A stretch of 64,000 nucleotides of DNA from contig NZ_KI912107.1 of the NCBI RefSeq assembly GCF_000517085.1, positions 3,159,980 to 3,223,979 on the forward strand, in the 5' to 3' direction. This document shows, piece after piece, positions 1,230 through 26,061 of this stretch. Under the pieces are notes generated by a model. The model worked only from the letters and a program-made list of their open reading frames with translations, was not told the DNA's origin and ran no database searches. The first letter of the stretch is position 1. Each line of letters starts with the position of its first letter. The position numbers and the translations under genes are program-made. Source of the stretch: Saccharicrinis fermentans DSM 9555 = JCM 21142 (GTDB lineage: Bacteria > Bacteroidota > Bacteroidia > Bacteroidales > Marinilabiliaceae).

Positions 1230-1277
1230 ACAAATAAAAACGCTTAGCAACTTTTAACATTTTTTTTACATTTTATC

Positions 1278-1308
1278 TTTGCTATTCTAAAAATGCCATT
1301 TATATTTG
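1278..1308 (+). promoter_or_regulatory. Bacteroidota-type promoter upstream of an ORF-free stretch
   Basis: TTTG at 1278-1281 is separated by 19 bases from TATATTTG at 1301-1308. This fits the Bacteroidota vegetative promoter pattern (TTTG, 17-23 bases, TAnnTTTG). A second TAnnTTTG-like box, TATCTTTG, overlaps at 1274-1281. Transcription would begin near 1313-1315, in a region without any ATG-started ORF. Confidence 0.6.
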
Positions 1309-1313
1309 CAGTG

Positions 1314-1445
1314 TAATCAAAAGGAAAACAGAGCATTGCTCATCAAAATATTAAAGAACTTAAATTTTCTCATAGTTTAGGGTTAGGTTTGGTTAAAGAT
1401 TGAAAGCCGTTGTCAATATTATTTGACAGCGGCTTTCTAATTTTT
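1314..1445 (+). ncRNA. candidate small non-coding RNA
   Basis: A consensus promoter ends just upstream and a 15-bp terminator hairpin lies at the far end, giving a predicted transcript of about 125-130 nt. I see no ATG and no plausible ORF between them, and no plus-strand gene follows before the convergent hydrogenase genes begin, so a leader role is unlikely. I do not recognise it as tmRNA, SRP RNA, RNase P RNA or 6S RNA. The extents are inferred from the two flanking signals only. Alternatively, the hairpin could simply end transcription from the DUF3078 gene about 170 bases upstream. Confidence 0.42.
1402..1445 (+). terminator. rho-independent terminator
   Basis: GAAAGCCGTTGTCAA (1402-1416) pairs with 1423-1437 over 15 bp, with one G-U pair and a six-base loop, followed by TAATTTTT. 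The T-rich side is downstream on the plus strand. On the minus strand it could also help to end the hydrogenase operon, but no U-run follows there. Confidence 0.75.
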
Positions 1446-1470
1446 AAATACTCCATTGTATCAGGCTCTT

Positions 1471-1959
1471 CTAACTATACTCAGCCAGAATATCTTTTAC
1501 ATCTTCAGGCGCCACGCGACCATATACTTTATCACCCACCGTCACCACAGGAGCTAAGCCACAAGCCCCTACGCAGCGTAAATTACTGATAGAGAATCTA
1601 CCATCAGGAGTGGTTTCACCCACTTTAATATCCAAAAGACGTTTAAATTCATCCAATACTTTTTCGGCCCCACGCACATAACAGGCAGTACCCATACACA
1701 CAGAAACAGGATGTTCACCTTTGGGGGTAATGGTAAAAAACGAATAAAAAGTAACCACACCATAAACATGCGCCACATTCACTTTTAGCTCATTGGCCAC
1801 TAGCTCCTGGACCTCAGCAGGCAAGTAACCAAAAATACCCTGAGCGGCATGCAATACATTAATCAATTCACTTTTATCATATCCAAATTTTTTACACACA
1901 TCTTTTAATTCCTGCACTTTACTCTCTGCTAATTTTATTTCTGCCATAACATCTAACAT
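1471..1959 (-). CDS. hydC: NADH-dependent [FeFe]-hydrogenase gamma subunit (NuoE-like [2Fe-2S] protein)
   Basis: A 162-residue protein of the NuoE/HydC thioredoxin-like ferredoxin family. It carries the [2Fe-2S] ligands as CMGTAC (about residue 103) and CVGACG (about 144), with the usual helical N-terminal part. In trimeric bifurcating hydrogenases this subunit passes electrons to or from the flavin subunit HydB. It is the last gene of the cluster. The ATG at 1959 overlaps the stop of hydA as TAATG, which suggests translational coupling; a second ATG four codons in (1947, MAEIKLAES) is an equally possible start, and neither has a clear ribosome-binding site. Ordinary complex I NuoE is the alternative, but the hydrogenase neighbours decide the call. 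Confidence 0.9.
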   Translation of the reverse strand: MLDVMAEIKLAESKVQELKDVCKKFGYDKSELINVLHAAQGIFGYLPAEVQELVANELKVNVAHVYGVVTFYSFFTITPKGEHPVSVCMGTACYVRGAEKVLDEFKRLLDIKVGETTPDGRFSISNLRCVGACGLAPVVTVGDKVYGRVAPEDVKDILAEYS

Positions 1960-3740
1960 TAGTCGTTATTAATTTCCACTTTCTTTTTCTTATCAAAATA
2001 ATGCGTATGGAGCAATCGGTGAGACAGGGATCCACCAGGCTCTCCCAAATACTCTTGATAGAGCTTCACAATAAATGGATTTTCGTGTGACTTACGAATG
2101 GCTTTGCCTGCATCTTCACGATAAATAGCCGCCGCTCTTTTCTTAAGAACACTGGTATCACCATGATGATAAGGTTGTCCTCCTCCTCCAATACACCCTC
2201 CGGGACAAGCCATTATTTCTATGGCATGAAAGCTTGACCTACCCGCCTGTACATCCTCCAACAATTTACGGGCATTACCTAGGCCATGTGCAATCCCTAT
2301 TTTAACAACCAGTCCGTCAAAATCCACTTCGGCAGAGCGGATGCCATCAAAGCCACGCAATACATCAAAGTCCACTTTTGCTAATTTTTTTTGGGTATGT
2401 ATCTCATAGGCGGTACGCACAGCAGCTTCAATAACACCACCTGTATTGGCAAAGATAACACCAGCACCAGTAGACTCACCCATAGGATTATCAAATACCT
2501 CATCATCCAACTCTTCAAAGTTAAGGTTGGCACCTTTTATCATCTGTGCCAGTTCGCGGGTTGAAATAGACAAATCCACATCCGGATTTCCATTGACAGC
2601 AAATTCTGGGCGTCCTGACTCATACTTCTTAGCCAAACATGGCATTACAGAAACCACCACCATCTCATCGCGCCGTATCCCCATCTGCTCTGCCAAATAA
2701 CTCTTAGCGATAGCTCCAAACATTTGCTGTGGCGATTTAGCAGTAGAAGGTACATCCAACAAGTCAGGAAAATTACTTTCGAAAAAATTCACCCAACCCG
2801 GACAACAAGAAGTGAGAATAGGCAATTTCACGTCCTTATCACCCGCCAGATGTCTTTTCAAGCGGCTTAACAACTCCGTTCCTTCTTCCATAATGGTAAG
2901 GTCAGCTGCAAAATCAGTATCAAATACCTTATCAAAGCCTATTTTTTTTAGGGCAGAAACCATCTTACCCGTCACTAAAGTACCCGGCTCCATACCAAAC
3001 TCTTCTCCCAGAGCAGCACGAACAGCAGGTGCCGTTTGTACAATTACGGTTTTTAGCGGATCAACCAGCGCTGCAATCACCTTACGGGTATTATCCACCT
3101 CCGACAAAGCTCCTGTGGGACATACAGCCACACACTGTCCACAATATGTACAAGTAGATTTCTCCAGATCCATTTCAAAGGCAGGCGCTACCACAGATTG
3201 AAACCCCCGATTAATGGCCGATAAACAACCCACCGTTTGCACCTCGTTACACATCATTTCGCACCTACGACACATAATACACTTGTCCACATCACGAATT
3301 ATCGCCGGAGATTTATCTTCCTTATAGTGCGACTGTTCTCCTTCAAAAGGTATCTCACGTATACCTAACTTCTGTGCCATTGTTTGCAAATCACACTTGC
3401 CATTTTTAACACAAGTCAAGCACTCAGCCGGGTGATCTGACAATATCAATTCCATTATTGTACGACGGGCATTGATCACTCTTAATGAGTGAGTATTTAC
3501 TTTCATACCTTCGGTACATTCCGTTTTACAAGCCGGCGCTAGATTTCTTCGCCCCTCCACCTCAACCACACAAATCCGGCAACCTCCTGGTTTATTCTCC
3601 ACATTTAAATCGTCCAGTTTCATATGACACAAAGTAGGTACATCAACCCCTACCGATTTTGCGGCCTCCACCAAAGTAGTTCCTCTTTGGACCTCTACTT
3701 GTTTATTATCTATATTTAATTTTACGATATCCTTTTTCAT
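1959..3740 (-). CDS. hydA: [FeFe]-hydrogenase catalytic subunit, HydA of HydABC type
   Basis: A 593-residue multidomain hydrogenase. In order: plant-type [2Fe-2S] domain (Cys38, 54, 57, 71), His-ligated [4Fe-4S] site of the NuoG type (His103, Cys107, 110, 116), two [4Fe-4S] motifs (Cys154-164 and Cys197-207), then the H-cluster domain with TSCCPGW (310-316), MPCLAKK (Cys368) and IMACPGGCIGGG (Cys512, Cys516), and the small-subunit-like C-terminal domain to about 575. The proton-relay cysteine (Cys312) is present, so this is expected to be catalytic. With HydB and HydC it should couple H2 turnover to NAD(H) and ferredoxin in the cytoplasm. I chose the ATG at 3740; the frame extends seven codons to a TTG at 3761, which I consider unlikely. 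Confidence 0.96.
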   Translation of the reverse strand: MKKDIVKLNIDNKQVEVQRGTTLVEAAKSVGVDVPTLCHMKLDDLNVENKPGGCRICVVEVEGRRNLAPACKTECTEGMKVNTHSLRVINARRTIMELILSDHPAECLTCVKNGKCDLQTMAQKLGIREIPFEGEQSHYKEDKSPAIIRDVDKCIMCRRCEMMCNEVQTVGCLSAINRGFQSVVAPAFEMDLEKSTCTYCGQCVAVCPTGALSEVDNTRKVIAALVDPLKTVIVQTAPAVRAALGEEFGMEPGTLVTGKMVSALKKIGFDKVFDTDFAADLTIMEEGTELLSRLKRHLAGDKDVKLPILTSCCPGWVNFFESNFPDLLDVPSTAKSPQQMFGAIAKSYLAEQMGIRRDEMVVVSVMPCLAKKYESGRPEFAVNGNPDVDLSISTRELAQMIKGANLNFEELDDEVFDNPMGESTGAGVIFANTGGVIEAAVRTAYEIHTQKKLAKVDFDVLRGFDGIRSAEVDFDGLVVKIGIAHGLGNARKLLEDVQAGRSSFHAIEIMACPGGCIGGGGQPYHHGDTSVLKKRAAAIYREDAGKAIRKSHENPFIVKLYQEYLGEPGGSLSHRLLHTHYFDKKKKVEINND

Positions 3741-3847
3741 CTGTATAAATTTATCTTTCAATGGTCAAATGGAACACATCCGAATGAATCATTCACCTGT
3801 GTGTCCTATTATTTACCCTAGCCATGCCAGTTTTATATGAATAAAAA

Positions 3848-5641
3848 TTACTGGATACTGATCGCGTTAAACTTACATTTTGCCATACAAGCCCCACACT
3901 TTATACAAACCGTTGTATCAATAACATGAGGCTGCTTTTTATCTCCCACAATAGCATCCACCGGACAAACACGAGCGCACAAAGTACACCCCACACAATA
4001 TTGTGGATCAATTACATACGACATCAACGATTTGCACTGACCCGCAGGACATTTACCATCCTTAATATGCGCCAAATATTCATGACCAAAATTATCTAGG
4101 GTAGAAAGCACTGGGTTAGGAGAAGTCTGTCCCAAACCACAAAGGGAGGTATCTTTGATGACATTACTGAGGTTTCGCAAGATATCCAAATCCTCTTCCG
4201 TTCCCTTTCCCTTAGTAATTTTATCCAATATTTCATACAAACGCTTGTTACCTATTCTGCACGGAGCACATTTACCACAAGATTCCTCCACCGTAAAGTC
4301 AAGATAGAATTTCGCCACTGACACCATACAATCATCTTCGTCCATAACAATCATACCTCCTGACCCCATCATAGAACCCGAGACGATCAAATTATCGTAA
4401 TCAATGGGCACATCCAAATGTTTCTCCGTCAAGCAACCTCCAGATGGTCCTCCGGTCTGAACCGATTTAAACTTTTTACCATCCTTGATGCCTCCTCCTA
4501 TATCAAAAATAACTTCCCGCAAAGTAATACCCATAGGCACTTCTATTAAACCAACATTATTAATTTTTCCAGCCAGTGCAAAAACCTTGGTTCCTTTACT
4601 CTTTTCGGTGCCTATAGATGAGAACCACTGGGCTCCATTATTAATAATAGCCGGTATATTCGCAAAGGTTTCCACATTATTTACATTTGTTGGCTTCCCT
4701 TTATAACCACTAACCGAAGGAAACGGTGGTTTAACCGTTGGTTCACCGCGCAAACCTTCCATGGAATGAATCAAAGATGTTTCCTCTCCACACACAAATG
4801 CACCTGCTCCATACCGTAGCTCCACGTCAAAATTAAAACCAGTACCAAAGATATTTTCTCCCAATACTCCGAGGTCACGGGCCTGTCCTATAGCTATTTT
4901 CAACCGTTCGATAGCTAGGGGATATTCGGCACGAATATAGATAAGTCCCTTATCTCCTCCTATACAGTATGCACATATGGCCATGGCTTCCAACACAGAG
5001 TGAGGATCACCTTCCAGGATAGAACGATCCATAAATGCACCGGGATCGCCTTCATCGGCATTACACACCACATATTTCTCATCGCCGTGTACCTTGCTGG
5101 TAATCTCCCATTTTAAGCCTGTGGGAAAACCTCCCCCTCCACGACCTCTCAACCCTGAGTCTTTTACTATTTCAATAGCTTCCTCTGGTGTCATATCCGT
5201 CAACACCTTACCCAATGCAGCATAGCCATCACGAGCAATATATTCATCAATATTCTCCGGGTTAATAAAACCACAGTTACGCAAAGCAATACGAATCTGT
5301 TTTTTATAGAAACCCATATGCTTTGAATCAGAGACATGCTCTTTTGTTTCCGGATCCATATATAATAAACGTTCCACCTTACGCCCCTTCACTAAGTGCT
5401 CTGAAATGATTTCCCCTGCATCCGCAGGTTTTACCTGCACATAAAATGTATTATCAGGAATTATTTTAACGATAGGTCCTTTCTCACAAAAACCGAAGCA
5501 ACCAGTACGCACCACTTGAATTTCTTTCTCCATACTATTGTCAACAATAGCTTGCTTAAGATTTTCGACAATAGCTTCACTTTGTGAAGTACGACATCCC
5601 GTACCTCCACAAACCAAAATATGATTTATAAACTTGGCCAT
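3848..5641 (-). CDS. hydB: NADH-dependent [FeFe]-hydrogenase beta subunit (NuoF-like flavoprotein)
   Basis: A 597-residue NuoF-type protein that binds FMN and NAD(H). The N-terminal thioredoxin-like [2Fe-2S] domain has Cys11, Cys16, Cys48 and Cys52. The FMN/NAD domain has GRGGGGFPTGLKW and NADEGDPGAFMDR, followed by an SLBB-like segment and the NuoF [4Fe-4S] motif ESCGKCAPCRIG. The C-terminus adds two [4Fe-4S] motifs (CVGCTLCARVCP and CIKCGACMAKC), which complex I NuoF lacks but bifurcating HydB has. In HydABC this subunit is the site of NAD(H) chemistry. The ATG at 5641 has AAAGGA upstream at good spacing. A 107-base gap separates it from hydA. Confidence 0.95.
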   Translation of the reverse strand: MAKFINHILVCGGTGCRTSQSEAIVENLKQAIVDNSMEKEIQVVRTGCFGFCEKGPIVKIIPDNTFYVQVKPADAGEIISEHLVKGRKVERLLYMDPETKEHVSDSKHMGFYKKQIRIALRNCGFINPENIDEYIARDGYAALGKVLTDMTPEEAIEIVKDSGLRGRGGGGFPTGLKWEITSKVHGDEKYVVCNADEGDPGAFMDRSILEGDPHSVLEAMAICAYCIGGDKGLIYIRAEYPLAIERLKIAIGQARDLGVLGENIFGTGFNFDVELRYGAGAFVCGEETSLIHSMEGLRGEPTVKPPFPSVSGYKGKPTNVNNVETFANIPAIINNGAQWFSSIGTEKSKGTKVFALAGKINNVGLIEVPMGITLREVIFDIGGGIKDGKKFKSVQTGGPSGGCLTEKHLDVPIDYDNLIVSGSMMGSGGMIVMDEDDCMVSVAKFYLDFTVEESCGKCAPCRIGNKRLYEILDKITKGKGTEEDLDILRNLSNVIKDTSLCGLGQTSPNPVLSTLDNFGHEYLAHIKDGKCPAGQCKSLMSYVIDPQYCVGCTLCARVCPVDAIVGDKKQPHVIDTTVCIKCGACMAKCKFNAISIQ

Positions 5642-5650
5642 GGTTTCCTT

Positions 5651-6061
5651 TTACTTTAAGTTATCTTTTGAGTTAGGCATGATGTAAGCTGCTGGAATTA
5701 TTCCATCCACCAATTCACCTCCCACAATATACCTGGCAATAATTTCTTTCGCTTTTTTCACGTCCACATGGCCATACACCACAGGATCAGCACCTGGGAT
5801 ATGCACTTCTATAGTTGGTTCAGAATGACAATACCCCATACATCCTGTCTGAGTAACTACGGCATCAACACCCTGCTTATCCAACTCTTCAATCAGATAA
5901 GACATAGTTTCCTTCGCTCCCGAAGCAATGCCACAGGTTGCCATGGAGACCTTTATCTGAACCACCTTTTCCGGACGGCTACTATTTTCGCGCAAGCTAA
6001 TCTTCTCTTGAAGATTCTCACGCATCCTTTTTAGATCATCTAAGGTTTTTACTTGTGCCAT
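5651..6061 (-). CDS. small thioredoxin-like [2Fe-2S] ferredoxin of the hydrogenase cluster
   Basis: A 136-residue protein. After a charged helical N-terminus it has the thioredoxin-like ferredoxin core with MATCGIASGA and TQTGCMGYCHSEP, supplying the cysteines expected for a [2Fe-2S] cluster. It resembles the N-terminal domain of HydB and the C-terminal part of NuoE, so it may be an extra electron carrier or a docking subunit for HydB. It lies nine bases upstream of hydB. I chose the ATG at 6061 because GGAG stands at correct spacing before it; an ATG four codons upstream (6073) overlaps that site and is less likely. Comparable small ferredoxin genes accompany hydABC in other anaerobes. Its exact role is unknown. 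Confidence 0.85.
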   Translation of the reverse strand: MAQVKTLDDLKRMRENLQEKISLRENSSRPEKVVQIKVSMATCGIASGAKETMSYLIEELDKQGVDAVVTQTGCMGYCHSEPTIEVHIPGADPVVYGHVDVKKAKEIIARYIVGGELVDGIIPAAYIMPNSKDNLK

Positions 6062-6203
6062 AATTTTCTCCATTATAGTTTGTAAATCTTCTTCTCACAC
6101 TCAAATCTCATAAAATATTCATATGCCCAACAAATCATCATCATGCCTATCCAACAATTTGCTCCAACCATGTCCACAAAAAAGGACTCTCCTGTTCCTT
6201 TCA

Positions 6204-6749
6204 TCACTTCACCCCCATTACAATCAGGTTCTCACGAATCATTTCTTGCATAAAATTGGATATTCCCACATCTGACACGGGCACTCCATCGAGTATTTTT
6301 TTTACGTCTCGGCTATCAAATTTGAATACTTCCTGATCACATTGATGGGTATATATAAAATCCACCTTAGGATTTCCAGATACCACCATACCAATAGTTC
6401 CTCCCAGATCACCCAATGGTGGTCTATCAATGTGCGAATAAACAAAAGAAGCTTTAAGCTGTGTTCCCTTGCCCGGCTCTGATTCAATCACTAAGTCACC
6501 TCCCGTCAATTGGGTATTTTGTTTTAACAAAGGAATACCCAAGCCCACTTTACGTGTTTTTCTGGAAGTAAAAAAAGGATCTAGAGCCATTTTAGCCATT
6601 TGCGCATCCATTCCACAGCCGTCATCCTCCACCTTCAATATCAATAAATCCCGAACACGATCCTCTACAATAGCTATTTTCACCAAAGAAGCTCCAGCTC
6701 TCACCGAATTTCCGATAATATCTAATATGTGCATCGATATGTCACGCAT
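6204..6749 (-). CDS. histidine-kinase-like ATPase domain protein (second copy)
   Basis: A 181-residue GHKL-type ATP-binding protein with no sensor or phosphoacceptor domain. N-box region ILDIIGNSVRAGA (about 8-20), G1 box DDGCGM (42-47), G2 box VGLGIPLLK (68-76) and GKGT (93-96) are all visible. The last 70 residues are a separate tail of unknown function. The ATG at 6749 is preceded by AAAGGAGGACAAT, a near-ideal ribosome-binding site, so the TTG six codons upstream is rejected. Such ATPases can act as serine kinases or anti-sigma-type switches. Its place in the hydrogenase cluster suggests regulation, but this is inference. It differs from the shorter ATPase at 9356-9766. Confidence 0.82.
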   Translation of the reverse strand: MRDISMHILDIIGNSVRAGASLVKIAIVEDRVRDLLILKVEDDGCGMDAQMAKMALDPFFTSRKTRKVGLGIPLLKQNTQLTGGDLVIESEPGKGTQLKASFVYSHIDRPPLGDLGGTIGMVVSGNPKVDFIYTHQCDQEVFKFDSRDVKKILDGVPVSDVGISNFMQEMIRENLIVMGVK

Positions 6750-6809
6750 ATTGTCCTCCTTTTTCAATCGATAGTTTCATAGTCCATGCTCATTTATAGA
6801 TATGAAAAA

Positions 6810-7559
6810 TCATAAATTTTCAATATCCATCACCTTTCTACCCGCTTCTCCTTTTAAAGCCATTCTTATTTCCTTAAACGAAGGTCTCTTTAACACCATG
6901 GTGGTAAAACGACTTCCAATCTGACTTAACATATGGGCATCCGAACTCGCTATTTTCGTGTAATTTTTCACCCAGCCATGCACATACTCCAATTTACCTA
7001 TCTCAACATGCGCACTCACTTCCACACCATCAACCGGTATATCCGGCGGCAAAAAGCCCAGCTGACTGATGACGCTAAATCTTAACTTATCAATATGAGC
7101 TGGAATAAACAATCCGTCCATCTTTCTCACTTGAGCAGCTACCTGATCTATGGAGACATCCAGTCCTACAATCAACAGTCTCTCTTCTTCGCCAACAATA
7201 TGATTATCCCGATCCACCCATACCTGATCCCCAAACAACACTGGTTTATTTTTAACCATTGGCAGATGCAAATCCAGATATTCTTGAAACAGGTCCAGCT
7301 TTTCAATATTTTCAAAGAACACAAGACAGTGCACCTCTTCCTTTGTATTCACCTCGACACCACACAAAACCGTTAGTCCAAGCTCCTGTCCTAAGTCTTT
7401 AACCACTGCACATTGTCGGGTACTATTATGATCAGCAATACCGATAACATCTAATTTTTCTTCCAAGGCTTTTCTAATGATGGCCTCAGGACTCATCTCC
7501 AGCTCTGCACATGGCGAAAGCACAGTATGAATATGTAAATCGACCCGATAGCTATTCAT
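6810..7559 (-). CDS. PHP-domain metal-dependent phosphoesterase
   Basis: A 249-residue PHP-family protein. The N-terminal metal-binding motif DLHIHT (His9, His11), IADHN (43-45), an internal IPAHIDKLR and the late SSDAHM give the usual PHP set of histidines and aspartates, so it is likely an active hydrolase. PHP proteins hydrolyse phosphate esters with a multi-metal centre; the substrate is not predictable here. It sits inside the hydrogenase gene run, 78 bases after a DRTGG gene and 60 bases before an ATPase gene. That position suggests a signalling or phosphoprotein phosphatase role, for example reversing a phosphorylation by the neighbouring ATPases. That pairing is speculation. Confidence 0.85.
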   Translation of the reverse strand: MNSYRVDLHIHTVLSPCAELEMSPEAIIRKALEEKLDVIGIADHNSTRQCAVVKDLGQELGLTVLCGVEVNTKEEVHCLVFFENIEKLDLFQEYLDLHLPMVKNKPVLFGDQVWVDRDNHIVGEEERLLIVGLDVSIDQVAAQVRKMDGLFIPAHIDKLRFSVISQLGFLPPDIPVDGVEVSAHVEIGKLEYVHGWVKNYTKIASSDAHMLSQIGSRFTTMVLKRPSFKEIRMALKGEAGRKVMDIENL

Positions 7560-7637
7560 TTTATCACCATTTTAAAAAAGCCTACTTAGTATGAGAAAAA
7601 ACAATTATTTCAATCCATCCCCTTCAGGTATCTACAC

Positions 7638-7979
7638 CTATTCTCTATTTTTCATCAAGTCATACAGTAAGCCAGCTATTTCAAAAGTTTGCAAATGCGT
7701 ACCCAAAATTGGAATCCCCTCCTTATTGCTTTGATCGATGGTGGCCTGTTCAGGCCTATAACCCTTCACTAAAACCACAGCCGCCACTTCTTTAAGCGAA
7801 GCAATGGCCATAATATTCTTATGTGTTTGCAGGGTTATCCACAATTCATCTTCCTTCACATTACCCATCACATCGCTCATCAAATCTGACACATACGCAC
7901 CTGTCACTTTTTTTTGAAGTCCTTGTTCCCCACAAAAGACCTTTAAGTTGAGTTGTCCAACCAAATCACATACCCTCAT
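7638..7979 (-). CDS. DRTGG-domain protein (second copy)
   Basis: A 113-residue protein made of a single DRTGG-like domain, the small domain otherwise found between CBS-type and catalytic modules of phosphotransacetylases and pyrophosphatases. Visible landmarks are VSDLMSDV (about 30-37), the hydrophobic core AAVVLVKG and the IPILGTHL segment near the end. The ATG at 7979 lies 14 bases inside the end of the upstream H-cluster gene and has GGAG before it, so the two are probably translationally coupled. It is a paralogue of the protein at 9772-10116. DRTGG domains are thought to bind small ligands; the ligand is unknown. Confidence 0.82.
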   Translation of the reverse strand: MRVCDLVGQLNLKVFCGEQGLQKKVTGAYVSDLMSDVMGNVKEDELWITLQTHKNIMAIASLKEVAAVVLVKGYRPEQATIDQSNKEGIPILGTHLQTFEIAGLLYDLMKNRE

Positions 7980-9339
7980 TTTTTGCTCCTATTTTCTTAC
8001 AATCCTTATCCAACCTATCCCTTCCCCATGTTCTTTCTATAATTCGTATTGCATGTTCACTACTCAATTTTTTATTTTTCTCCATCATCCGTTGTAAAAA
8101 CACACAGTTAGAGAGGTTCGCTTTTTTTTGCACAATATCTTCAGCCAATGCTTGACACCCCGGCGATCCACAAGCCCCACAATCAATACCTGGCAAATAA
8201 CACATTAAATTACGAATACGCTCCATCTTCTTCAGTGCTTCCTGAAAATCCTGATCTAAGGAAATCGTCGGAAGCGGATCTATCTTACTGACAAACAGAT
8301 TTCGGTCCTCAATAATTTCCGCATACTCTTTCCAGTCCACATCTCCTGCTACACTCTCAAGCTGATAAGCTCTTCTTTTCATTCTATCAACCGTCATAAA
8401 ACGATTTCCATGCAACAACACCCCACCAGCACAGCCTTGATCACAGGCTCTCAATTCCAGATAATCCACTGTTGGTATTTCATCATTTTCCAAGCGTTCC
8501 AAAAATTCTATTACATTATGAATTTCATCCACAGCCAAACATCTTCCTTTCATATTATCAGCCTCGCCGCGTGTCAAACTCCATTGAATGGCTTTGCTCG
8601 AAAGATGCGGCAATATGGGTAACTCACGGTCTCTATCCTTGTTATTTTTAATCTTAGCATAGAGTTTATTATAAAGATAACGCATATTAATCACTCCATT
8701 GATCACGGCCCCTTGATCTTCGCTCCAACCTTTTATAGCTGCAATTTTAGCCGCACAAGGTGTCACATAAAAAATTCCAATTTGACAATCTGGTACACCT
8801 TGGTTCTGGAGCATTTTCCGATAGAAAGCTGCCGAGGCATCTACCGGTGGTTTAACAGAAGCAATATGATCAATTAAAGCTGGAAAACGAACCTGTATCA
8901 ATCTCATCACTGAAGGACAAAAAGTGGAGATCAATGGTTTCTCATTGTTAATCTTCATTTGCTCATCCATAAGTTCATTAATCACGTCTACCATAAATTC
9001 AGCCTGAAAAACATGGGTAAAACCAAGCTCTTTCATCATACTAAATATCTCTTCTTCACTAACGTAAGTAGGAAACTGGCCAGTAAATACTGCAGGAACC
9101 AAGGCAATACGACATTGATATTCAAAAATATTATCCAAGTCATCCTGCTCCACATAAATAGCATCCACAGGACAAGCCTTTAAACACTCACCACAATCGA
9201 TACACCGCTTCTTCAATATCAAAGCTTTTCCATCACTTATACGAACGGCATCAGTAGGACACACATTCATGCAATGTGTACAACCATAACAAATATCTTT
9301 GTCGACCTTTAGGGCGTGATATATTTGTATCATCTTCAT
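7966..9339 (-). CDS. divergent [FeFe]-hydrogenase-like protein, putative sensory (HydS-like)
   Basis: A 457-residue protein. It has two N-terminal [4Fe-4S] motifs (Cys17, 20, 23, 27 and Cys46, 49, 52, 56), a reduced H-cluster domain, and a C-terminal Fe-S domain of PF04060 type (Cys387, 390, 395, 412). The H-cluster cysteines remain as TFCPS (Cys141), TPCAAK (Cys195) and ACDQGC (Cys299, Cys303). The first cysteine of the TSCC motif, the proton relay in active enzymes, is replaced by Phe140, and the GGGQP part of the third motif is gone. Such proteins occur beside hydABC in Thermotogae and Firmicutes and are regarded as putative H2 or redox sensors; that role is inferred here. It overlaps the next DRTGG gene. 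Confidence 0.85.
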   Translation of the reverse strand: MKMIQIYHALKVDKDICYGCTHCMNVCPTDAVRISDGKALILKKRCIDCGECLKACPVDAIYVEQDDLDNIFEYQCRIALVPAVFTGQFPTYVSEEEIFSMMKELGFTHVFQAEFMVDVINELMDEQMKINNEKPLISTFCPSVMRLIQVRFPALIDHIASVKPPVDASAAFYRKMLQNQGVPDCQIGIFYVTPCAAKIAAIKGWSEDQGAVINGVINMRYLYNKLYAKIKNNKDRDRELPILPHLSSKAIQWSLTRGEADNMKGRCLAVDEIHNVIEFLERLENDEIPTVDYLELRACDQGCAGGVLLHGNRFMTVDRMKRRAYQLESVAGDVDWKEYAEIIEDRNLFVSKIDPLPTISLDQDFQEALKKMERIRNLMCYLPGIDCGACGSPGCQALAEDIVQKKANLSNCVFLQRMMEKNKKLSSEHAIRIIERTWGRDRLDKDCKKIGAKNEGM

Positions 9340-9355
9340 TCAGACTATCAACATT

Positions 9356-9766
9356 CTACAGATAAGTTTTCATTTCAACGATGGTTCCATGATCCACTTC
9401 ACTACTTACATTTAGCTCGTCCACGTTTTTCTTTATATTAGGTAACCCCATCCCTGCACCGAACCCCATCTCCCTAACCTTAGGAGACGCAGTAGAAAAA
9501 CCCTCCTTCATAGCTAATTCAATATCTGGAATTCCAGGTCCTTTATCATCCAACACAATCTCTATATATTCCGGCGTAATATTAACACGTATTATGCCCT
9601 TATAGGCATGTGCTACAATATTTACTTCAGCCTCATATAAAGCAACCACCGTACGTTTAACAATTTTTGGATGAACATTTAGTTGCTTCAATATTTTTTT
9701 CACTGCGCTGGAAGCATTCCCTGCCTTGCCAAAATCCCCTCCATCCACTTCATAAATAAATTCCAT
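9356..9766 (-). CDS. anti-sigma-type ATP-binding protein (GHKL ATPase, first copy)
   Basis: A compact 136-residue GHKL ATPase of the RsbW/SpoIIAB type, with only the ATP-binding fold. N-box EAEVNIVAHA (45-54), G1 DDKGPGIPD (73-81) and G2 GFGAGMGLPN (101-110) are intact. Relatives phosphorylate or bind partner proteins. No sigma factor or anti-sigma antagonist gene is next to it; its neighbours are DRTGG and hydrogenase-like genes, so its target may be one of these. It starts at the ATG at 9766, five bases after the preceding DRTGG gene, and is followed after 16 bases by the H-cluster gene. It is clearly distinct from the longer ATPase at 6204-6749. Confidence 0.85.
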   Translation of the reverse strand: MEFIYEVDGGDFGKAGNASSAVKKILKQLNVHPKIVKRTVVALYEAEVNIVAHAYKGIIRVNITPEYIEIVLDDKGPGIPDIELAMKEGFSTASPKVREMGFGAGMGLPNIKKNVDELNVSSEVDHGTIVEMKTYL

Positions 9767-9771
9767 GGCGC

Positions 9772-10116
9772 TTAATAAACAGGTGATAATCCGGCAGTAA
9801 ACAACTTACCTACCGCATTATACATAGAATACCTACACTGCAACACCACCACCCCTTCTTCCTTGGCCAAGGCCAACATTTCCGGCGTCACTTTCTTATT
9901 TCGTACAAACACAATACAATTTATATCTGCCATTTCAACAGTTCTAATTGTTTGCATATTAGCCAGACCTGTTACCAATACCATCTTATCAGTATCCAGT
10001 GTAAGCACATCACTCATTAAATCGCTGGCAAATCCACAAGTTATTTCATCATCCATGTTGGAATCACCACACACTATTTCGGCATCCAGAATAGCAACAA
10101 TTTCCTTTATTTTCAT
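9772..10116 (-). CDS. DRTGG-domain protein (first copy), first gene of hydrogenase cluster
   Basis: A 114-residue single-domain DRTGG-like protein with the landmark FASDLMSDVL (29-38) shared with the paralogue at 7638-7979, and with a late EEGVVVLQCR segment in place of that copy's IPILGTHL. The two are alike in length and fold pattern but well diverged, so the duplication is old. It starts at the ATG at 10116 and is the most upstream gene of the ten-gene run. A 16-bp perfect palindrome lies 37 bases upstream. The function is unknown; a ligand-binding or protein-interaction role with the adjacent ATPase is plausible. Confidence 0.8.
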   Translation of the reverse strand: MKIKEIVAILDAEIVCGDSNMDDEITCGFASDLMSDVLTLDTDKMVLVTGLANMQTIRTVEMADINCIVFVRNKKVTPEMLALAKEEGVVVLQCRYSMYNAVGKLFTAGLSPVY

Positions 10117-10525: not shown

Positions 10526-11194
10526 ATGATAAACAAAGAGCTTCAACGAAAAATAGACGAGGGGGAACACCAACAACAGGACTTTAAATATGCCATCAAT
10601 GACTCTAAGAAGATAGCGCGTTCATTGGCTGCCTTTGCCAATACGGATGGAGGCTGTTTACTTGTAGGCGTAAAGGACAATGGGAAAATAGCAGGTATTT
10701 CGTCCGAAGAAGAATTTTATATGATTGAAGCAGCGGCACAGATGTATTGCAGACCACCTGTTGAATTTGAAACCTTGGAATGGCAAAGCGATGGAAAAAC
10801 TGTACTTGAAATAAAAATTCCTAAAAGTGCAAACAAACCACACAAAGCCCCGACTAAAGATGGCAAATACATGGTATATGTGAGGGTTGAAGACCAAAAC
10901 TTATTAGCTAACAAAATACTGTTGGAGTACTGGAAGGCGCAGCAAAAAAACAAAAGCCATTTACTCCGCTTTAATAAACCGGAGAAATTTTTATTACAAT
11001 TCCTTTCTAATCATGATTCAATAACACTTAGCCGCTTTCAGAAACAGGCGAACATACCAAGATTTAGGGCAGAAAGAATATTAGTAAGTCTACTGTGTAT
11101 GCGTATAATTCAGATTCACATTACAGAGAAACAAGTATTTTATACCTTGTCAGAGAATCTGGATAAACACCACACCCCCTATGATAGAAATTAA
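10526..11194 (+). CDS. AlbA_2/Schlafen-type ATP-binding regulator-like protein
   Basis: A 222-residue protein. Residues about 12-125 form an AlbA_2 (formerly AAA_4) domain: QQDFKYAIND, then SLAAFANTDGGCLLVGV with the conserved AFANTDGG turn, and a late VYVRVEDQN. The rest (about 140-215) looks like a small winged-helix segment (SRFQKQANIPRFRAERILV). The family includes putative transcriptional regulators and Schlafen-like proteins, some linked to phage defence or tRNA cleavage; I cannot choose between these. It stands alone on the plus strand between opposing genes, immediately after a MITE copy. The ATG at 10526 follows AAAGA. Confidence 0.75.
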   Translation: MINKELQRKIDEGEHQQQDFKYAINDSKKIARSLAAFANTDGGCLLVGVKDNGKIAGISSEEEFYMIEAAAQMYCRPPVEFETLEWQSDGKTVLEIKIPKSANKPHKAPTKDGKYMVYVRVEDQNLLANKILLEYWKAQQKNKSHLLRFNKPEKFLLQFLSNHDSITLSRFQKQANIPRFRAERILVSLLCMRIIQIHITEKQVFYTLSENLDKHHTPYDRN

Positions 11195-11218: not shown

Positions 11219-12436
11219 CTACTCAGCCATCGGGTATAACAAATACTTTTCCCTTAATTTTGCATACTTTTGCAAAGCAGGCTTCCATTTTATTCGAATG
11301 GCATCCTCCGACAAACCAGCCTGAATATCCTTAAGTAACTGGTCATCTCCTGCCAATAAATTAAACCAACGGTCATTTAATCCAAACCCATCATCTTGTC
11401 CGAACTGCTTATAGAAAGAGATAAAATAAGAAAGGGTAAAACGGTGTGCCAAATCACCTTGTCTAAGATCAATACCGAAGCACTTCTTACCTCTCTGCGG
11501 AGGATTTTTTGCCATACCCACAATACTTTGTGGCATAAAAATGAAATCTCCCGCAGCACTATCGGGATATCCTATCACTTGAAACGGGAAATAAGTACCT
11601 CGTCCAACACTCACCTTTGTAGCCTCAAAGAAACATAGCGACGGATAAAGACGAATAGCACGATTATTTGGAAGATTAGGAGACGGTTTAAGTGGTAAAA
11701 CATAAGGCAAGCTATGCTTCCAGTTTTTAACTTTAATCACTTCCAAAGGACATCTTTGAGCTTCGGCTAACCAGCCTTCACCATTGATCATTAGAGCCAG
11801 TTCTCCAACTGTTAAACCATGAACCACAGGAATAGGATGCATCCCTACGAAAGATCGGAATGCGGGCTTCAGAATAGGACCATCAAAGTAATCACCATTG
11901 GGGTTTGGCCGGTCAAGCACCAGCATCTTAGTAGACGTTTCGGCACAGGCTTCCATCATATAATGCATTGAACTGATATAGGTATAAAACCTAACTCCCA
12001 CATCTTGAATATCAAAAACAACCACGTCAAGATCTTCCAGTTGCTCTTTTGTTGGCTTTTTATGATCACCATATAACGAAACAATAGAAATACCTGTTTG
12101 AAGATCCACTTCACTTTTTACTGACTCACCTGCATCATGCTTTCCTCTAAAACCATGTTCTGGTGCGAATATTCTGGTGACTCGAATGCCTTGGCTAAGC
12201 AGGGTATCCAATAAATGAGTTCTTTCCACCAACGAAGAATGATTCACCAATAAACCTACCTTTTTACCCTTTAACAGATAAAGATAATCTTCAAAACAAG
12301 CAGCTGCTGGTTGAATCTTCTTTATTATAGCTTTCTCTCCTTGCGCTGAACAAGAAAAATCACAAAAAAGAATCACAATAAATATAAATATTCGAAACAT
12401 AAAAATGCGCACTATAAATTCATAAAAAGCATTCAT
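11219..12436 (-). CDS. NamZ-like exo-beta-N-acetylmuramidase (DUF1343)
   Basis: A 405-residue exported protein of the DUF1343 family, whose characterised member NamZ releases N-acetylmuramic acid from the non-reducing end of peptidoglycan fragments. Family landmarks: GLLVNHSS (about 61-68), FAPEHGFRG, VFDIQDVGVRFYTYISSMHY and LDRPNPNGDYFDGP, then a second domain with LPNNRAIRLYPSL and the GRGTYFPFQVIG region. The N-terminus is a signal peptide ending near CSAQG, so it should act in the periplasm in wall recycling. The ATG at 12436 gives a long n-region; an in-frame ATG at 12400 (MFRIFIFIVILF) gives a more typical signal peptide and is a good alternative. Confidence 0.88.
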   Translation of the reverse strand: MNAFYEFIVRIFMFRIFIFIVILFCDFSCSAQGEKAIIKKIQPAAACFEDYLYLLKGKKVGLLVNHSSLVERTHLLDTLLSQGIRVTRIFAPEHGFRGKHDAGESVKSEVDLQTGISIVSLYGDHKKPTKEQLEDLDVVVFDIQDVGVRFYTYISSMHYMMEACAETSTKMLVLDRPNPNGDYFDGPILKPAFRSFVGMHPIPVVHGLTVGELALMINGEGWLAEAQRCPLEVIKVKNWKHSLPYVLPLKPSPNLPNNRAIRLYPSLCFFEATKVSVGRGTYFPFQVIGYPDSAAGDFIFMPQSIVGMAKNPPQRGKKCFGIDLRQGDLAHRFTLSYFISFYKQFGQDDGFGLNDRWFNLLAGDDQLLKDIQAGLSEDAIRIKWKPALQKYAKLREKYLLYPMAE

Positions 12437-12527: not shown

Positions 12528-12848
12528 TCACGCTTGGGGCGTAGATCCGAAATTCATCGGAATATTACCTCCAGGTTGTCCTTCATCAATATTTTTAATA
12601 GGCCCATGCATGGCTTCATAACGTTTTATATTATCCTGTAAAGCCATCATTAACCTTTTAGCATGTTCAGGTGTAACAACCACCCTTGATTTCACCTGAG
12701 CTTTAGGCAGTCCCGGCATCACACGGATAAAATCCATCACAAATTCCGATGCTGAGTGCGTTATAACAGCTAGGTTAGAATAAATCCCCTGTCCTACCTC
12801 TTCATTTAATTCAATATTCAACTGATTCTTGTTTTTTTTATCTTCCAT
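12528..12848 (-). CDS. DUF3467 protein
   Basis: A 106-residue soluble protein of the DUF3467 family, recognised from the central block FVMDFIRVMPGLPKAQV and VVVTPEHAKRLMMAL. It has no known function. It lies downstream of rpoC on the same strand, an arrangement common in this phylum, but a strong terminator separates it from rpoC, so it may be read from its own promoter or by read-through. The C-terminal tail is rich in Gly and Pro and likely disordered. Confidence 0.85.
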   Translation of the reverse strand: MEDKKNKNQLNIELNEEVGQGIYSNLAVITHSASEFVMDFIRVMPGLPKAQVKSRVVVTPEHAKRLMMALQDNIKRYEAMHGPIKNIDEGQPGGNIPMNFGSTPQA

Positions 12849-12962: not shown

Positions 12963-15900
12963 CTATTCTTGTTCTTCTTCCACTACTTTATTCTCCACCA
13001 ATCTATCATACTCATCCTTAGAACCCACTACCAGATTTTTAAGAGCTCTCTGACCTGTTCCGGCAGGAATCAAGTGGCCACAGATTACGTTTTCTTTCAA
13101 TCCTTCTAGTAAATCTACTTTACCAGAGATAGCAGCTTCATTCAATACTTTGGTTGTTTCCTGGAAGGAAGCAGCCGACATAAAGCTCTTGGTTTGAAGC
13201 GCAGCTCTTGTAATACCCTGTAGAATTTGGCTGGAAGTAGCAGGAATGGCATCTCTAGACTCCACTAGCTTAAGATCTTTTCGTTTCAGCTGAGAATTTT
13301 CATCTCTTAAACGACGAGCTGTAACAATCTGACCAGCCTTTAAGTTTTCAGAATCACCCGGATCCACTACGACTTTTTTATCGAAGATATCATCATTTTC
13401 ATGCATGAACTCCAACTTGTCAACAATTTGTTTTTCCAAGAATTTAGTATCACCCGGATCCACAATATTTACTTTACGCATCATCTGACGAACGATGATT
13501 TCAAAGTGCTTATCATTGATCTTCACTCCCTGCAGACGGTAAACATCCTGTACTTCGTTCACAATATACTCTTGTACAGCCGTAGGTCCCATGATATGAA
13601 GAATATCAGAAGGAGTTGTAGCTCCATCAGACAATGGAATACCGGCACGCACATAATCATTTTCTTGTACCAAGATCTGTTTAGAAAGAGGAACCAGGTA
13701 TTTCTTCACCTGACCATTCTTAGAAGTAACAATAATTTCGCGGTTACCCCGTTTAATCTTACCAAATGTCACCTCGCCATCAATCTCAGAAACTACAGCC
13801 GGATTAGAAGGATTACGAGCCTCAAAGAGTTCTGTTACCCTTGGAAGACCCCCTGTAATATCACCAGCTTTACCAACTGCTCTAGGGATTTTAGAAACAA
13901 TCTCACCTACTTTTACTTTTTGGCCTTCTTCCACTGAGACGTGCGCCCCAACCGGTAGGTTAAAAGTTTTAAGAATCTCACCAGAATCATCAACAATCCT
14001 CAAAGCAGGGTTTTTGGTTTTATCCCTGGTTTCAATGATAACCTTTTCCTTAAATCCTGTTTGTTCATCAGATTCTTCTTTGTAAGTGATACCATCAAGC
14101 ATATTATCAAAGCTTACGGAACCAGATTTTTCAGATACGATTACCGCATTGTAAGGATCCCATTCTGAGATTAAATCTCCAGACTTAACTTCAGTTCCGT
14201 TTTTAACAAACAATTTAGAACCATAAGTAATCGGTTGATTAGCCAATGCAATACCTGTATTCTTATCTATGATACGTAATTCAGCCAAACGACCAATGAC
14301 GATATCCACATCTCTTCCTTCTTCATCTTTAGTAGGAACAGTACGTAGCTCATCTATTTCTATGATACCATCATACTTAGCTGTGATACTACTTTCTGTA
14401 GAGATATTACCTGCTGTACCCCCAACGTGGAAAGTACGAAGCGTAAGCTGTGTTCCTGGCTCTCCAATAGACTGAGCAGCAATAACACCTACAGCTTCTC
14501 CAATATGAACAAAGTTACCTGTGGCAAGGTTACGTCCATAACATTTGGCACATACCCCTACTTTAGATTCACATGTCAATACTGAACGAATTCCAACCCT
14601 TTCCAGCGGAGAATCATTTAATATCTTAGCTTTTTCTTCATCAATTTCTTCACCTGATTTTACAATCAACTCACCCGTTGATGGATGATAAACATCATGT
14701 ACCGAAACACGACCCAAAATCCGTTCATAAAGAGTGGCAACAATATCCTCGTTATTTTTAACATCCGAAGCCGAGAGCCCTCTTAATGTACCACAATCGT
14801 CCTCTGTAATGATAACATCCTGAGACACATCCACTAAACGACGGGTCAAATACCCGGCATCCGCTGTCTTAAGTGCCGTATCCGCAAGACCCTTACGAGC
14901 ACCGTGAGTAGAAATAAAGTATTCCAGTACAGATAGACCCTCTTTAAAGTTAGAAAGAATTGGGTTTTCAATAATCTGTCCACCGGTAGCACCTGATTTT
15001 TGAGGTTTAGCCATCAGTCCCCTCATACCAGACAGCTGACGAATCTGTTCTTTAGAACCCCTTGCTCCAGAATCAAGCATCATATAAACAGAGTTAAATC
15101 CTTGTTGATCGGAACTTAACTGAGTCATCAGAGTATTCGTCAAACGTGCATTTACATGCGTCCAGATATCAATGATCTGATTGTAACGTTCGTTGTTCGT
15201 GATGAATCCCATATTATAGTTATTCAACACTTCCTCTACTTCGGCATATCCCTCTTCCACCATTTTATTTTTGGCTTCCGGAATAATTACATCACCCAAG
15301 TTAAACGACAGTCCACCTTCGAATGCCATTCGGTAACCCAGGTTTTTAATATCATCAAGGAAAGCAGCCGTACGCGGAGTACCACATATTTTCTGTACTT
15401 TACCAATGATATCACGTAAGGCCTTCTTAGTCAATACATCGTTAATAAAACCTGCTTCTCTTGGTGCAAATTCATTAAACAAGATACGACCTACCGTAGA
15501 CTCTATTATTTGAATTTCAGGAACACCATCTTTATTCAGATCGTAACCTTTAACTTTCACATTCGCGTGTAAATCAACAACTCCTTCATTATAGGCAATT
15601 TTCACCTCTTCCAAGTCATAGAAAGTCAGTCCTTCACCTCTGGCGCCTTCACGTGCTTTAGTCATGTAATACAGACCCAAAACCATATCCTGAGAAGGTA
15701 CTGTTACGGGAGCACCATTGGCGGGGTTAAGAATATTCTGCGAACCCAACATCAACATTTGTGCTTCCAGGATGGCTGCATTACCAAGAGGTAAGTGAAC
15801 TGCCATCTGGTCACCATCAAAGTCAGCATTAAAAGCCGAACAAGCCAAGGGGTGTAACTGAATTGCCTTACCCTCAATTAACTTAGGCTGGAAGGCTTGA

Positions 15901-24227: not shown

Positions 24228-24362
24228 TAGTTTATTCTTTAATTTCTATCAAAGGTACAAAATCTCCGACAGGTTCCTGTGTAAACTGATGTTTTTAACA
24301 CCTTGATTCCTTTCACTAACTTGCCGGATAACCATCGATTGAACGATTTTCATCCGGCTTAG

Positions 24363-24435
24363 CACGGGATAAGAGACTCGAACTCCTGACACCTGGTTTT
24401 GGAGACCAGTGCTCTACCAACTGAGCTAATCCCGT
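24363..24435 (-). tRNA. tRNA-Trp (CCA)
   Basis: A 73-nt cloverleaf. The acceptor stem ACGGGAT pairs with ATCCCGT, the D stem is GCTC/GAGC, the anticodon arm is CTGGT-CTCCAAA-ACCAG with anticodon CCA, and the T arm has GTTCGAG. The discriminator base is G, as expected for tryptophan. The CCA tail is not encoded. It lies between tuf and secE, the usual order in Bacteroidota. Confidence 0.97.
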
Positions 24436-24487
24436 GTAATAATGGAAGGAATAAATCCTTCCATTAAGACTTTATACTATTTATTGA

Positions 24488-25675: not shown

Positions 25676-25738
25676 AACTCGAATAATTAGACAATTAGAT
25701 ATTAACTTATAATTTTTTAAAATTCCGAACCAGAATAG

Positions 25739-25810
<72 letters not shown>

Positions 25811-25815
25811 GAATG

Positions 25816-25888
25816 AGCGGGAGACGGGATTCAAACCCGCGACCCTTAGCTTGGAAGGCTAATGCTCTATCAGCTGAGCTACTCCCGC
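25816..25888 (-). tRNA. tRNA-Gly (TCC)
   Basis: A 73-nt cloverleaf with acceptor GCGGGAG/CTCCCGC, anticodon arm TTAGC-CTTCCAA-GCTAA with anticodon TCC, and T arm GCGGG-TTTGAAT-CCCGT. Member of the Tyr-Gly-Thr tRNA group ahead of tuf. Confidence 0.97.
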
Positions 25889-25978
25889 TTTTTTTTGATT
25901 CGGGGCTACAAAGGTAATGATTTATTAATCAAAAACTTCGCAAAACCCCGGATAATTTTCAATATTTTCCGGTTCTTG

Positions 25979-26061
25979 TGGGGAGAGCAGGATTCGAACC
26001 TACGAAGACGAAAGTCAGCGGAGTTACAGTCCGCCCCAGTTGGCCACTTTGGTATCTCCCC
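25979..26061 (-). tRNA. tRNA-Tyr (GTA)
   Basis: An 83-nt class II tRNA with a long variable arm. Acceptor GGGGAGA/TCTCCCC, discriminator A, anticodon arm GCGGA-CTGTAAC-TCCGC with anticodon GTA, and T arm GTAGG-TTCGAAT-CCTGC. It is the most upstream RNA gene of the tuf unit. Confidence 0.97.

Follow-up and report, generated by a model that had tools for sequence, protein, structure and literature searches.

A six-gene unit upstream of a group A6 hydrogenase

In a 64,000-nucleotide stretch of the genome of Saccharicrinis fermentans DSM 9555 = JCM 21142 (contig NZ_KI912107.1, positions 3,159,980 to 3,223,979; hereafter, the window), the genes for a putatively sensory H-cluster protein (HydS), two DRTGG-domain proteins, two GHKL ATPases, and a PHP-domain phosphoesterase stand directly upstream of those for a group A6 [FeFe]-hydrogenase. 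The ten genes form one minus-strand run from 10116 to 1471, with the six module genes first and FD-hydB-hydA-hydC after them (Table 1). This is the arrangement described in the original prediction, which was made from the sequence of this locus, and its coordinates were confirmed; the term "fused" that it used for the module holds for the order of the genes and not for their products, none of which is a fusion protein in the window. Five bases separate the DRTGG1 and RsbW-like genes and 16 bases the RsbW-like gene and hydS, hydS and the DRTGG2 gene overlap by 14 bases, and the later gaps measure 78 (DRTGG2/PHP), 42 (PHP/GHKL2), and 130 (GHKL2/FD) bases. Each of the six module proteins has a Pfam domain above the cut-off; PHP_C, a second PHP-associated domain, falls just below it. 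HydA, HydB, and HydC together make up a HydABC enzyme of group A6, for which electron bifurcation is predicted, and hydC homologs also sit downstream of hydA in relatives. Across the whole genome, DRTGG domains were found in DRTGG1 and DRTGG2 only, and Fe_hyd_lg_C in three proteins: HydA, HydS, and one encoded elsewhere, which carries the letter B as an assigned label in the tree described below. The control genome of T. maritima was matched by PF02906, NF040763, and PF07085.

The analysis as a whole covered Bacteroidota, the phylum of one further genome (that of locus L104), and one Bacillota record; all counts out of 80 refer to the best 80 of 422 loci confirmed in a scan of named genome contigs. 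Searching for the six-gene order across genomes had been proposed with the original prediction, and the order proved to be conserved on a single strand in 69 of the 80 loci when all hits were used (60 by a stricter count, which lost DRTGG2 genes overlapping hydS). Because the same order recurs in 69 named loci of other genomes, the run is not a product of chance. FD, hydB, hydA, and hydC continue after the unit in 57 of these 69 loci; six show only part of them within the stretch, and nothing follows in the remaining six (L051, L052, L053, L091, L109, and L070, the last on a short contig). As for the other 11 loci, six end close to HydS (L057, L085, L088, L097, L115, and L116), two are rearranged (L104 and L114), two lack GHKL2 (L098 and L099), and one lacks both PHP and GHKL2 (L108). 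Median gaps range from -1 to 7 bases within the unit, compared with 86 bases between GHKL2 and FD, and no additional gene was regularly inserted among the six in the 80 named loci. A search of 72,556 plasmid records with the RsbW-like protein at 1e-8 yielded three matches, namely module records of Parabacteroides and Subdoligranulum and an anti-sigma gene of Halobaculum; with PHP at 1e-12, only the two module records matched.

Table 1. Genes of the ten-gene run and other features of the window
Feature	Position	Strand	Domain or family evidence
DRTGG1, stand-alone DRTGG domain, 114 aa	10116-9772	minus	PF07085 above Pfam cut-off
RsbW/SpoIIAB-like GHKL ATPase, 136 aa	9766-9356	minus	HATPase_c_2 above cut-off
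HydS, group-D-like, putatively sensory [FeFe]-hydrogenase, 457 aa	9339-7966	minus	Fe_hyd_lg_C, FeS, Fer4 (Pfam)
DRTGG2, second DRTGG domain, 113 aa	7979-7638	minus	PF07085 above Pfam cut-off
PHP-domain phosphoesterase, 249 aa	7559-6810	minus	PF02811 above cut-off
GHKL2, larger GHKL ATPase, 187 aa	6767-6204	minus	HATPase families only (Pfam)
FD, thioredoxin-like [2Fe-2S] protein	6073-5651	minus	Pfam and NCBIfam [2Fe-2S] matches below cut-off
hydB, FMN/NADH subunit of bifurcating hydrogenase (predicted)	5641-3848	minus	Complex1_51K, NADH_4Fe-4S, Fer4
hydA, group A6 [FeFe]-hydrogenase subunit	3761-1959	minus	NF040763, 892.5 bits (cut-off 765)
hydC, thioredoxin-like [2Fe-2S] (NuoE-like) subunit	1959-1471	minus	PF01257, 172 bits (cut-off 24.8)
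AlbA_2 (Schlafen) domain gene, 409 bases upstream of module	10526-11194	divergent from module	
NamZ exo-beta-N-acetylmuramidase gene	11219-12436		
DUF3467 gene	12528-12848		
Large gene past the NamZ and DUF3467 genes, presumably rpoC-like by its sequence	12963-17237		
Four tRNA genes (Trp, Thr, Gly, Tyr)	24362-26061		

HydS retains the H-cluster ligands and resembles group D proteins

HydS begins with two [4Fe-4S] motifs (eight cluster cysteines), continues with the H domain, and ends in a Cx2Cx4Cx16C motif (C387, C390, C395, and C412) that is matched by the Pfam family FeS. All four H-cluster cysteines (C141, C195, C299, and C303) are present, and these and the four C-terminal cysteines are invariant in 105 of 105 HydS rows, in which the window is counted twice. 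The retained cysteines rule out the "degenerate" H-cluster of the original prediction. F140 takes the place of the proton-transfer cysteine, and T193 and R297 stand where group A enzymes have two methionines next to the cluster. T193, at the M353 position, is Thr in all 84 rows of the first set, and Thr or Ser is found there in 10 of the 21 rows of the second. Proteins outside 390 to 700 aa or with an E value above 1e-60, L215 among these, were left out of the alignment. Eight further rows hold all four H-cluster cysteines in six cases and His at one of them, the first cysteine of the third H-cluster motif, in two (L256 and L257). L034, L035, L253, L255, L256, and L257 have another residue in place of the N-terminal cysteine 20; the HydS genes with His at one H-cluster and one N-terminal cluster cysteine lie at 8277-9539 in L256 and at 8186-9433 in L257. 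No Pfam match to a PAS domain was obtained for the window HydS at E 0.01. In a 40-row tree, HydS proteins of the window type form one clade (support 100/99) that is separate from rows labelled A, B, and C; the letters A to D are the analyst's labels, and three of the nine longer HydS loci of the phylum survey yielded an open reading frame. The closest named relatives among the matches listed come from Labilibacter and Saccharicrinis loci (79 to 86% identity).

This set of traits fits a putatively sensory group-D-like (M2e) [FeFe]-hydrogenase, as compared with TamHydS of Thermoanaerobacter mathranii by published features rather than by sequence, and the earlier view of the H-cluster protein as a sensory type stands. 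TamHydS likewise has two N-terminal clusters, an H domain, a C-terminal Cx2Cx4Cx16C motif, and no PAS domain, and as in the window protein, it has lost the cysteine called C299 in that account and carries Ser or Thr at the M353 position (PMC8163306). A hydroxyl residue is given there for M353, and M497 is variable (PMC8163306). The gene for TamHydS also lies upstream of a bifurcating group A hydrogenase, and its neighbors are a histidine-kinase-like ATPase and a gene with an AraC family annotation; the six-gene unit, the roles of the DRTGG, RsbW, and PHP proteins, the fusions, and the non-hydrogenase partners are not defined in the accessible text of that account (PMC8163306).

HydS proteins of group C, the PAS type (TmHydS, R. 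albus HydS, and hfsB), are similar in that a sensory H-cluster protein is encoded by hydrogenase genes and that kinase/phosphatase signalling has been proposed; R. albus HydS is described with an adjacent Ser/Thr kinase in PMC5707799. They differ in carrying a PAS output domain (below the cut-off in L038) and, in L038, an adjacent SpoIIE-type phosphatase gene, whereas DRTGG2, the RsbW-like ATPase, and PHP occur here, and the two types fall into separate clades. In L038, the region immediately ahead of the module (790-7809) holds another trimeric hydrogenase together with an 82-aa HydC-like gene and a group-C-like HydS of greater length, which the SpoIIE-type phosphatase gene follows. Gene hits similar to this upstream cluster were seen in L039, L041, L042, L044, and L046-L049. 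The window has other genes upstream of its module; two different HydS switches therefore stand side by side in close relatives. Sensory H-cluster proteins beside bifurcating hydrogenases have been published, and so have kinase-like neighbors. No description of the six-gene unit, the fusions, the break point, or the non-hydrogenase partners was found in the accessible literature, which offers only pieces and outside which most subscription papers lie.

Catalytic and candidate acceptor residues of the module proteins are conserved

Residue conservation was counted over 104 loci and the window, with at most one row per locus and family, an E value below 1e-18, and a length between 0.75 and 1.5 times that of the window protein. 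In DRTGG1, D32, S35, and K74 are found in 89 of 89 rows, R58 in 85, and R72 in 86; D32 and S35 of DRTGG2 are likewise invariant (82/82). In the AlphaFold2 model of DRTGG1 (mean predicted local distance difference test [pLDDT] score, 95.7), S35 starts a short helix (34-38) that follows a strand, a placement which, we assume, resembles that of the phospho-serine of SpoIIAA. The best Foldseek matches of the model are the DRTGG domain of AF1212, that of a CBS-pyrophosphatase, and HPr kinase. The likeness to the pyrophosphatase domain and the HPr kinase N-domain is one of fold (Foldseek E 5e-05); unlike in the CBS-pyrophosphatases, the DRTGG domain here stands alone and bears the motif SDLMSDV, with D32 and S35 invariant.

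The N-box residues E45 and N49 of the small ATPase are present in all 97 rows, and the four PDB sequences that it matched are all SpoIIAB. Based on these sequence features, it is proposed to be a Ser/Thr protein kinase, and we call it RsbW-like rather than RsbW because its match lies below the curated SpoIIAB equivalog cut-off. As in the SpoIIAB/RsbW partner switches, a GHKL kinase with catalytic N-box residues stands beside a small partner gene. The partner, however, is a DRTGG protein instead of a STAS protein, and no sigma factor belongs to the unit. A STAS-domain gene lies opposite the module end in two rumen genomes (L109, 12122-12469; L115, 3483-3917). A nearby-encoded STAS substrate was rejected as a general feature, since one similarity search with the L109 protein found a match by only 2 of 80 loci, although distant STAS proteins could escape it.

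Nine positions of the PHP protein (H9, H11, D43, H44, E69, H77, H155, D207, and H209) are invariant in 92 of 92 rows. Its likely metal ligands, which we take to be among these nine, are thus retained, in keeping with its earlier designation as a phosphoesterase. Its solved relatives include an exoribonuclease and endonuclease Q. In GHKL2, D16 and N20 are present in 90 of 91 rows (one gap) and D48, G50, G52, G75, and G77 in all 91. Its AlphaFold2 model (pLDDT 91.2) has a first helix at 10-23 and a C-terminal second domain. Foldseek matched the full length to MutL/PMS2 and topoisomerase VI-B (TM scores of 0.46 to 0.59) and the ATPase part to histidine kinases; the full-length match of this predicted model serves as a lead only. 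Pfam recognized only HATPase families, from residue 14, and no dimerization or phosphoacceptor domain, which rules out membership of GHKL2 in the histidine kinases. Both ATPases had originally been viewed as kinases or partner switches; the small one, with its N-box Glu and Asn, is indeed of kinase type, whereas the larger is a GHKL protein lacking the dimerization domain of histidine kinases in Pfam.

Natural fusions pair the module proteins

HydS and DRTGG2 form one protein in three loci (L214, L217, and L218), in which DRTGG2 directly follows the C-terminal cluster domain, and DRTGG1 and the RsbW-like kinase form one protein in two others (L256 and L257), with the Pfam DRTGG match just under the cut-off. 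These fusions suggest that HydS works with DRTGG2 and DRTGG1 with the RsbW-like kinase. In the group-C-like HydS of L038, the C-terminal cluster domain is followed by a weak PAS match that stays below the cut-off. As this position can be occupied by DRTGG2, PAS (L038), or HisKA plus HATPase (L220), it looks like a general output slot of HydS proteins. The L220 protein (1794-3812, 672 aa) is HydS-like, is fused to HisKA and HATPase, and shares its gene cluster with a group D module; judged by its domains, it looks like an H-cluster sensor resembling a true histidine kinase.

The unit is tied to the HydB/HydC core

Among 295 genomes of the taxonomic order, window-type HydS was called in 97 (E 2.5e-69 or better; the next matches start at 6e-53, nearly all of those listed being at least 580 aa) and A6 HydA in 191. 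A6 HydA is present in 96 of the 97 genomes with HydS compared with 95 of the 198 without it; both occur in 96 genomes, HydS only in one (G310), HydA only in 95, and neither in 103 (Fisher P = 4e-22, uncorrected for kinship). The proposed tie between module and hydABC was thereby borne out. In 60 of the 97 HydS genomes, HydA follows the module in the same orientation at no more than 8 kb; it is within 8 kb in some other arrangement in 5, beyond 8 kb on the same contig in 6, and on a different contig in 24, and none was entered for 2 (none in G310, below the cut-off in G354); this count rests on A6 hits over the cut-off and four lower rows, a lower-scoring group of HydA of about 580 aa being mostly omitted. 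Occurrence of the module apart from a hydrogenase had been named as evidence that would speak against the tie. Such separation does occur, with HydA within 8 kb in 65 genomes and farther away or on another contig in 30, yet 96 of the 97 carry HydA. Fifteen loci either showed no FD-hydABC behind the module or had a short contig or an odd label, and 14 of their genomes were searched; all 14 match Fe_hyd_lg_C, 13 of them in a HydA-like frame of 559 to 659 aa (E 1e-94 or better) and the remaining one (G301) by a part match only, in a 341-aa frame. Distances of HydS and HydB correlate over 70 loci (r = 0.92, shared ancestry uncorrected), with r = 0.85 in 57 loci and 0.65 in 13 loci of the second phylum; shared ancestry alone would yield part of this correlation.

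Split loci mark the border of the unit. G296 (P. gordonii) has the six genes by themselves at L051 and FD-hydB-hydA-hydC by itself at L261, and the two halves are likewise separate in G600 (L265 and L266). In two of the three split genomes in which both halves were seen, the break falls precisely at the junction of GHKL2 and FD, as anticipated by the boundary originally drawn between the module and the FD side. P. distasonis (L259) also has the six genes without neighboring hydABC, and the enzyme side of L262 and L264 is FD-hydB-hydA-hydC. FD was ruled out as a member of the module, given that it stays beside hydB after the split (L261, L262, L263, L264, and L266). Since Pfam detects no DNA-binding domain in the six proteins and the module lies apart from hydABC in genomes that have both, it can act in trans.

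The partner enzyme is not always an [FeFe]-hydrogenase. In two Bacteroidota genomes of a 296-genome phylum survey (L034 and L035), the six genes are followed by HydC-FD-HydB, a HydA-like protein lacking the H domain, and the large subunit of a [NiFe]-hydrogenase; L255 has the same arrangement, and so does L253 as far as the small subunit, where the stretch ends. NiFe-linked modules follow heterodisulfide-reductase-like genes in L253 (5641-8074; Fer4_8, CCG, and FAD/4Fe-4S parts), similarly in L034, L035, L252, and L255, and partly in L254. In the phylum of the L104 genome, whose record is labelled Thermodesulfobacteriota, HydS matches were obtained in 30 of 148 genomes at E 1e-25 and in 19 at 4e-90 or better. 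Selenocysteine formate dehydrogenase clusters adjoin the module in six loci (L209, L210, L211, L221, L223, and L228), where the HydA-like gene stops at an in-frame TGA (context DHCARL*HS.TVAGL) and the frame continues; in all four loci tested (L209, L221, L223, and L228), what lies beyond the TGA encodes a molybdopterin enzyme. HydB is about 1000 aa long in L208, L209, L210, L211, L219, L220, and L225, and in L208, the only one tested, it is fused to a GltD-like domain. HydA has the length of an H-domain protein in L104, L220, and L227. The six genes of L216 stand without an enzyme in the stretch, no catalytic partner was recognized within the stretches of L214, L217, and L218, and L178, L215, L219, and L224 hold partial modules. 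The Bacillota record (L258, Subdoligranulum, filed as a plasmid) has a DRTGG1-RsbW-HydS-DRTGG2-PHP run with the sixth gene, GHKL2, on the divergent side, which reads HydC-GHKL2-(unassigned open reading frame)-HydB-HydA, HydA being of group A6.

The module genes and [FeFe]-hydrogenase of L104 and L227, under the Thermodesulfobacteriota label, nest within the Bacteroidota clade, by transfer or contamination of a metagenome-assembled genome. A third module of this genome (L228) lies beside a formate dehydrogenase. In L256, HydS adjoins a HydA-like protein with a molybdopterin domain, and a rubrerythrin gene is nearby.

Because the catalytic partner varies ([NiFe]-hydrogenase, formate dehydrogenase, or HydB-GltD) and HydB/HydC stays, the common factor of the partners is the HydB/HydC core, called Bfu in PMC9304861. 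A strictly hydrogenase-linked module is ruled out by these neighbors, and the original tie to hydrogenases as such was not supported. HydB- and HydC-like proteins are also common to the Bfu family operons (FeFe-Hyd, NiFe-Hyd, Fdh-Bfu, and Nfn-Bfu), although bifurcation by the HydB-GltD type seen here is only a possibility. In the Bfu account, the A. mobile operon is accompanied by genes named hisK and hydD; neither "kinase" nor "sensory" appears in the main text of that paper, and its legends mention processing or regulatory genes, which the accessible text does not analyze (PMC9304861).

A proposed H2/redox-responsive partner switch and its alternatives

We favor the reading that the six genes encode a self-contained, H2/redox-sensing phospho-switch dedicated to HydB/HydC-type electron-bifurcating enzymes, to which we assign a probability of about one half. 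HydS would bind H2 at its H-cluster and equilibrate with the low-potential electron pool of the cell; an H2-induced structural change has been published for the group D protein TamHydS. Its state would pass through the C-terminal cysteine domain to DRTGG2, which the fusions put in the position held in group C HydS proteins by PAS or, in a single case, by a histidine-kinase domain. The RsbW-like kinase, paired with DRTGG1 by the other fusions, would phosphorylate a DRTGG protein, most likely at the invariant Ser35, so that DRTGG may take the role of STAS proteins toward RsbW/SpoIIAB, perhaps within an H2/redox-responsive partner switch. As its metal site is conserved and the unit has no PP2C gene, PHP would be the protein that removes the phosphate, and GHKL2 may serve as an ATP-driven clamp or adaptor rather than as a histidine kinase. 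The output might adjust the HydBC-type enzyme by binding the enzyme or its ferredoxin-like neighbor, or through an unlinked regulator. The phosphorylation itself, its direction, the parts played by PHP and GHKL2, and the output are what we infer from the conserved sites, the gene order, and the fusions.

Several observations weigh against this reading. A ligand pocket would account equally well for the conserved R58, T59, R72, and K74 of DRTGG1. The top NCBIfam match of the RsbW-like ATPase, SpoIIAB, scores 59.8 bits against a cut-off of 135, and neither a STAS domain nor a sigma-factor domain was detected by Pfam among the ten genes of the window run. The run of L256 and L257 includes neither PHP nor GHKL2, so that two DRTGG domains, RsbW, and HydS are the smallest set seen with an enzyme; as the HydS of these loci bears His, neither PHP nor the standard H-cluster is universal. 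The C-terminal cluster of TamHydS is not reduced by H2 (PMC13104023), and the transfer of the signal to DRTGG2 therefore cannot rest on a redox change of that cluster. In G599 (L263), where FD adjoins hydB, only the RsbW-like and HydS genes of the module were recognized; HydS occurs without the module in the stretches read of L212, L213, and L222; and the partner in L091 is ambiguous, no FD-hydB following the unit and another hydrogenase directly preceding it.

The DRTGG proteins might instead bind an adenine nucleotide or dinucleotide that PHP hydrolyzes while the GHKL proteins read the energy charge; the H2/NADH/ferredoxin status would then be linked to that of ATP with no protein being phosphorylated. 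DRTGG does accompany adenine-nucleotide-regulated CBS domains in pyrophosphatases, but it is the CBS domains that are reported to bind the nucleotide there (PMC10742508). The pyrophosphatase DRTGG domain is among the best solved relatives of the DRTGG1 model, and the nuclease relatives of PHP and the basic R58, R72, and K74 of DRTGG1 point the same way; the N box of the RsbW-like ATPase, however, is of the protein-kinase type, and the RsbW-DRTGG1 fusion of two loci is what is expected for a kinase and its partner. On balance, we consider nucleotide sensing unlikely. A role in assembly or maturation of the HydBC core, with HydS as scaffold or electron donor and the GHKL proteins as chaperone-like ATPases, would agree with a common factor that is HydB/HydC rather than one catalytic center, and HydD, HydP, and HisK of the A. 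mobile NiFe-HydABCSL operon are assumed to act in maturation and/or regulation (PMC8880783). Against it, 95 of the 191 A6-bearing genomes of the order lack window-type HydS, and the enzyme thus seems able to do without it; 31 of these 95 show no match to HydS of either type at E 1e-30. A scaffold would also hardly need the conserved H-cluster site, and we give this idea little credence.

RsbW and SpoIIAB are anti-sigma kinases, and the unit might accordingly control transcription, either by sequestration of a sigma factor by the RsbW-like protein or through GHKL2 acting as a histidine kinase on a response regulator encoded elsewhere. Support comes from the hydrogenase operons of C. thermocellum, where upstream kinases, phosphatases, and/or PAS sensors suggest possible two-component control (PMC3492117), from the STAS gene that adjoins the module in two rumen loci, and from the fusion of a group-C-like HydS to HisKA and HATPase in L220. 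Yet Pfam finds no sigma, response-regulator, or DNA-binding domain in any of the six proteins, nothing else is regularly placed among the six genes, GHKL2 has no dimerization or phosphoacceptor domain, and the L109 STAS protein found its match by 2 of 80 loci in a search that may miss distant STAS proteins, all of which makes transcription control rather improbable in our estimate.

Implications

The phospho-switch that we favor may be part of a wider pattern. Tentatively, and as a possibility we rate below even odds, the unit would be a widespread, portable control module of the whole HydB/HydC family of electron-bifurcating enzymes, spread over three phyla or more. Its H-cluster sensor would drive a novel kind of partner switch with DRTGG in place of STAS as phospho-acceptor of the RsbW-type kinase and PHP in place of PP2C, one switch per enzyme, and a cell with several bifurcating enzymes would thereby tune each of them to the H2/ferredoxin poise. 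The fusions and the co-occurrence name the likely partners and the exact gene unit, which makes the idea directly testable, and Parabacteroides (P. gordonii, L051, and P. distasonis, L259), where the unit stands without adjacent hydABC, offers a natural genetic test free of polar effects on hydABC. If the reading is true, it suggests how anaerobes, gut bacteria included, tune their H2 output, and control by H2 or redox poise would extend to formate dehydrogenases and NiFe hydrogenases with a HydB/HydC core.

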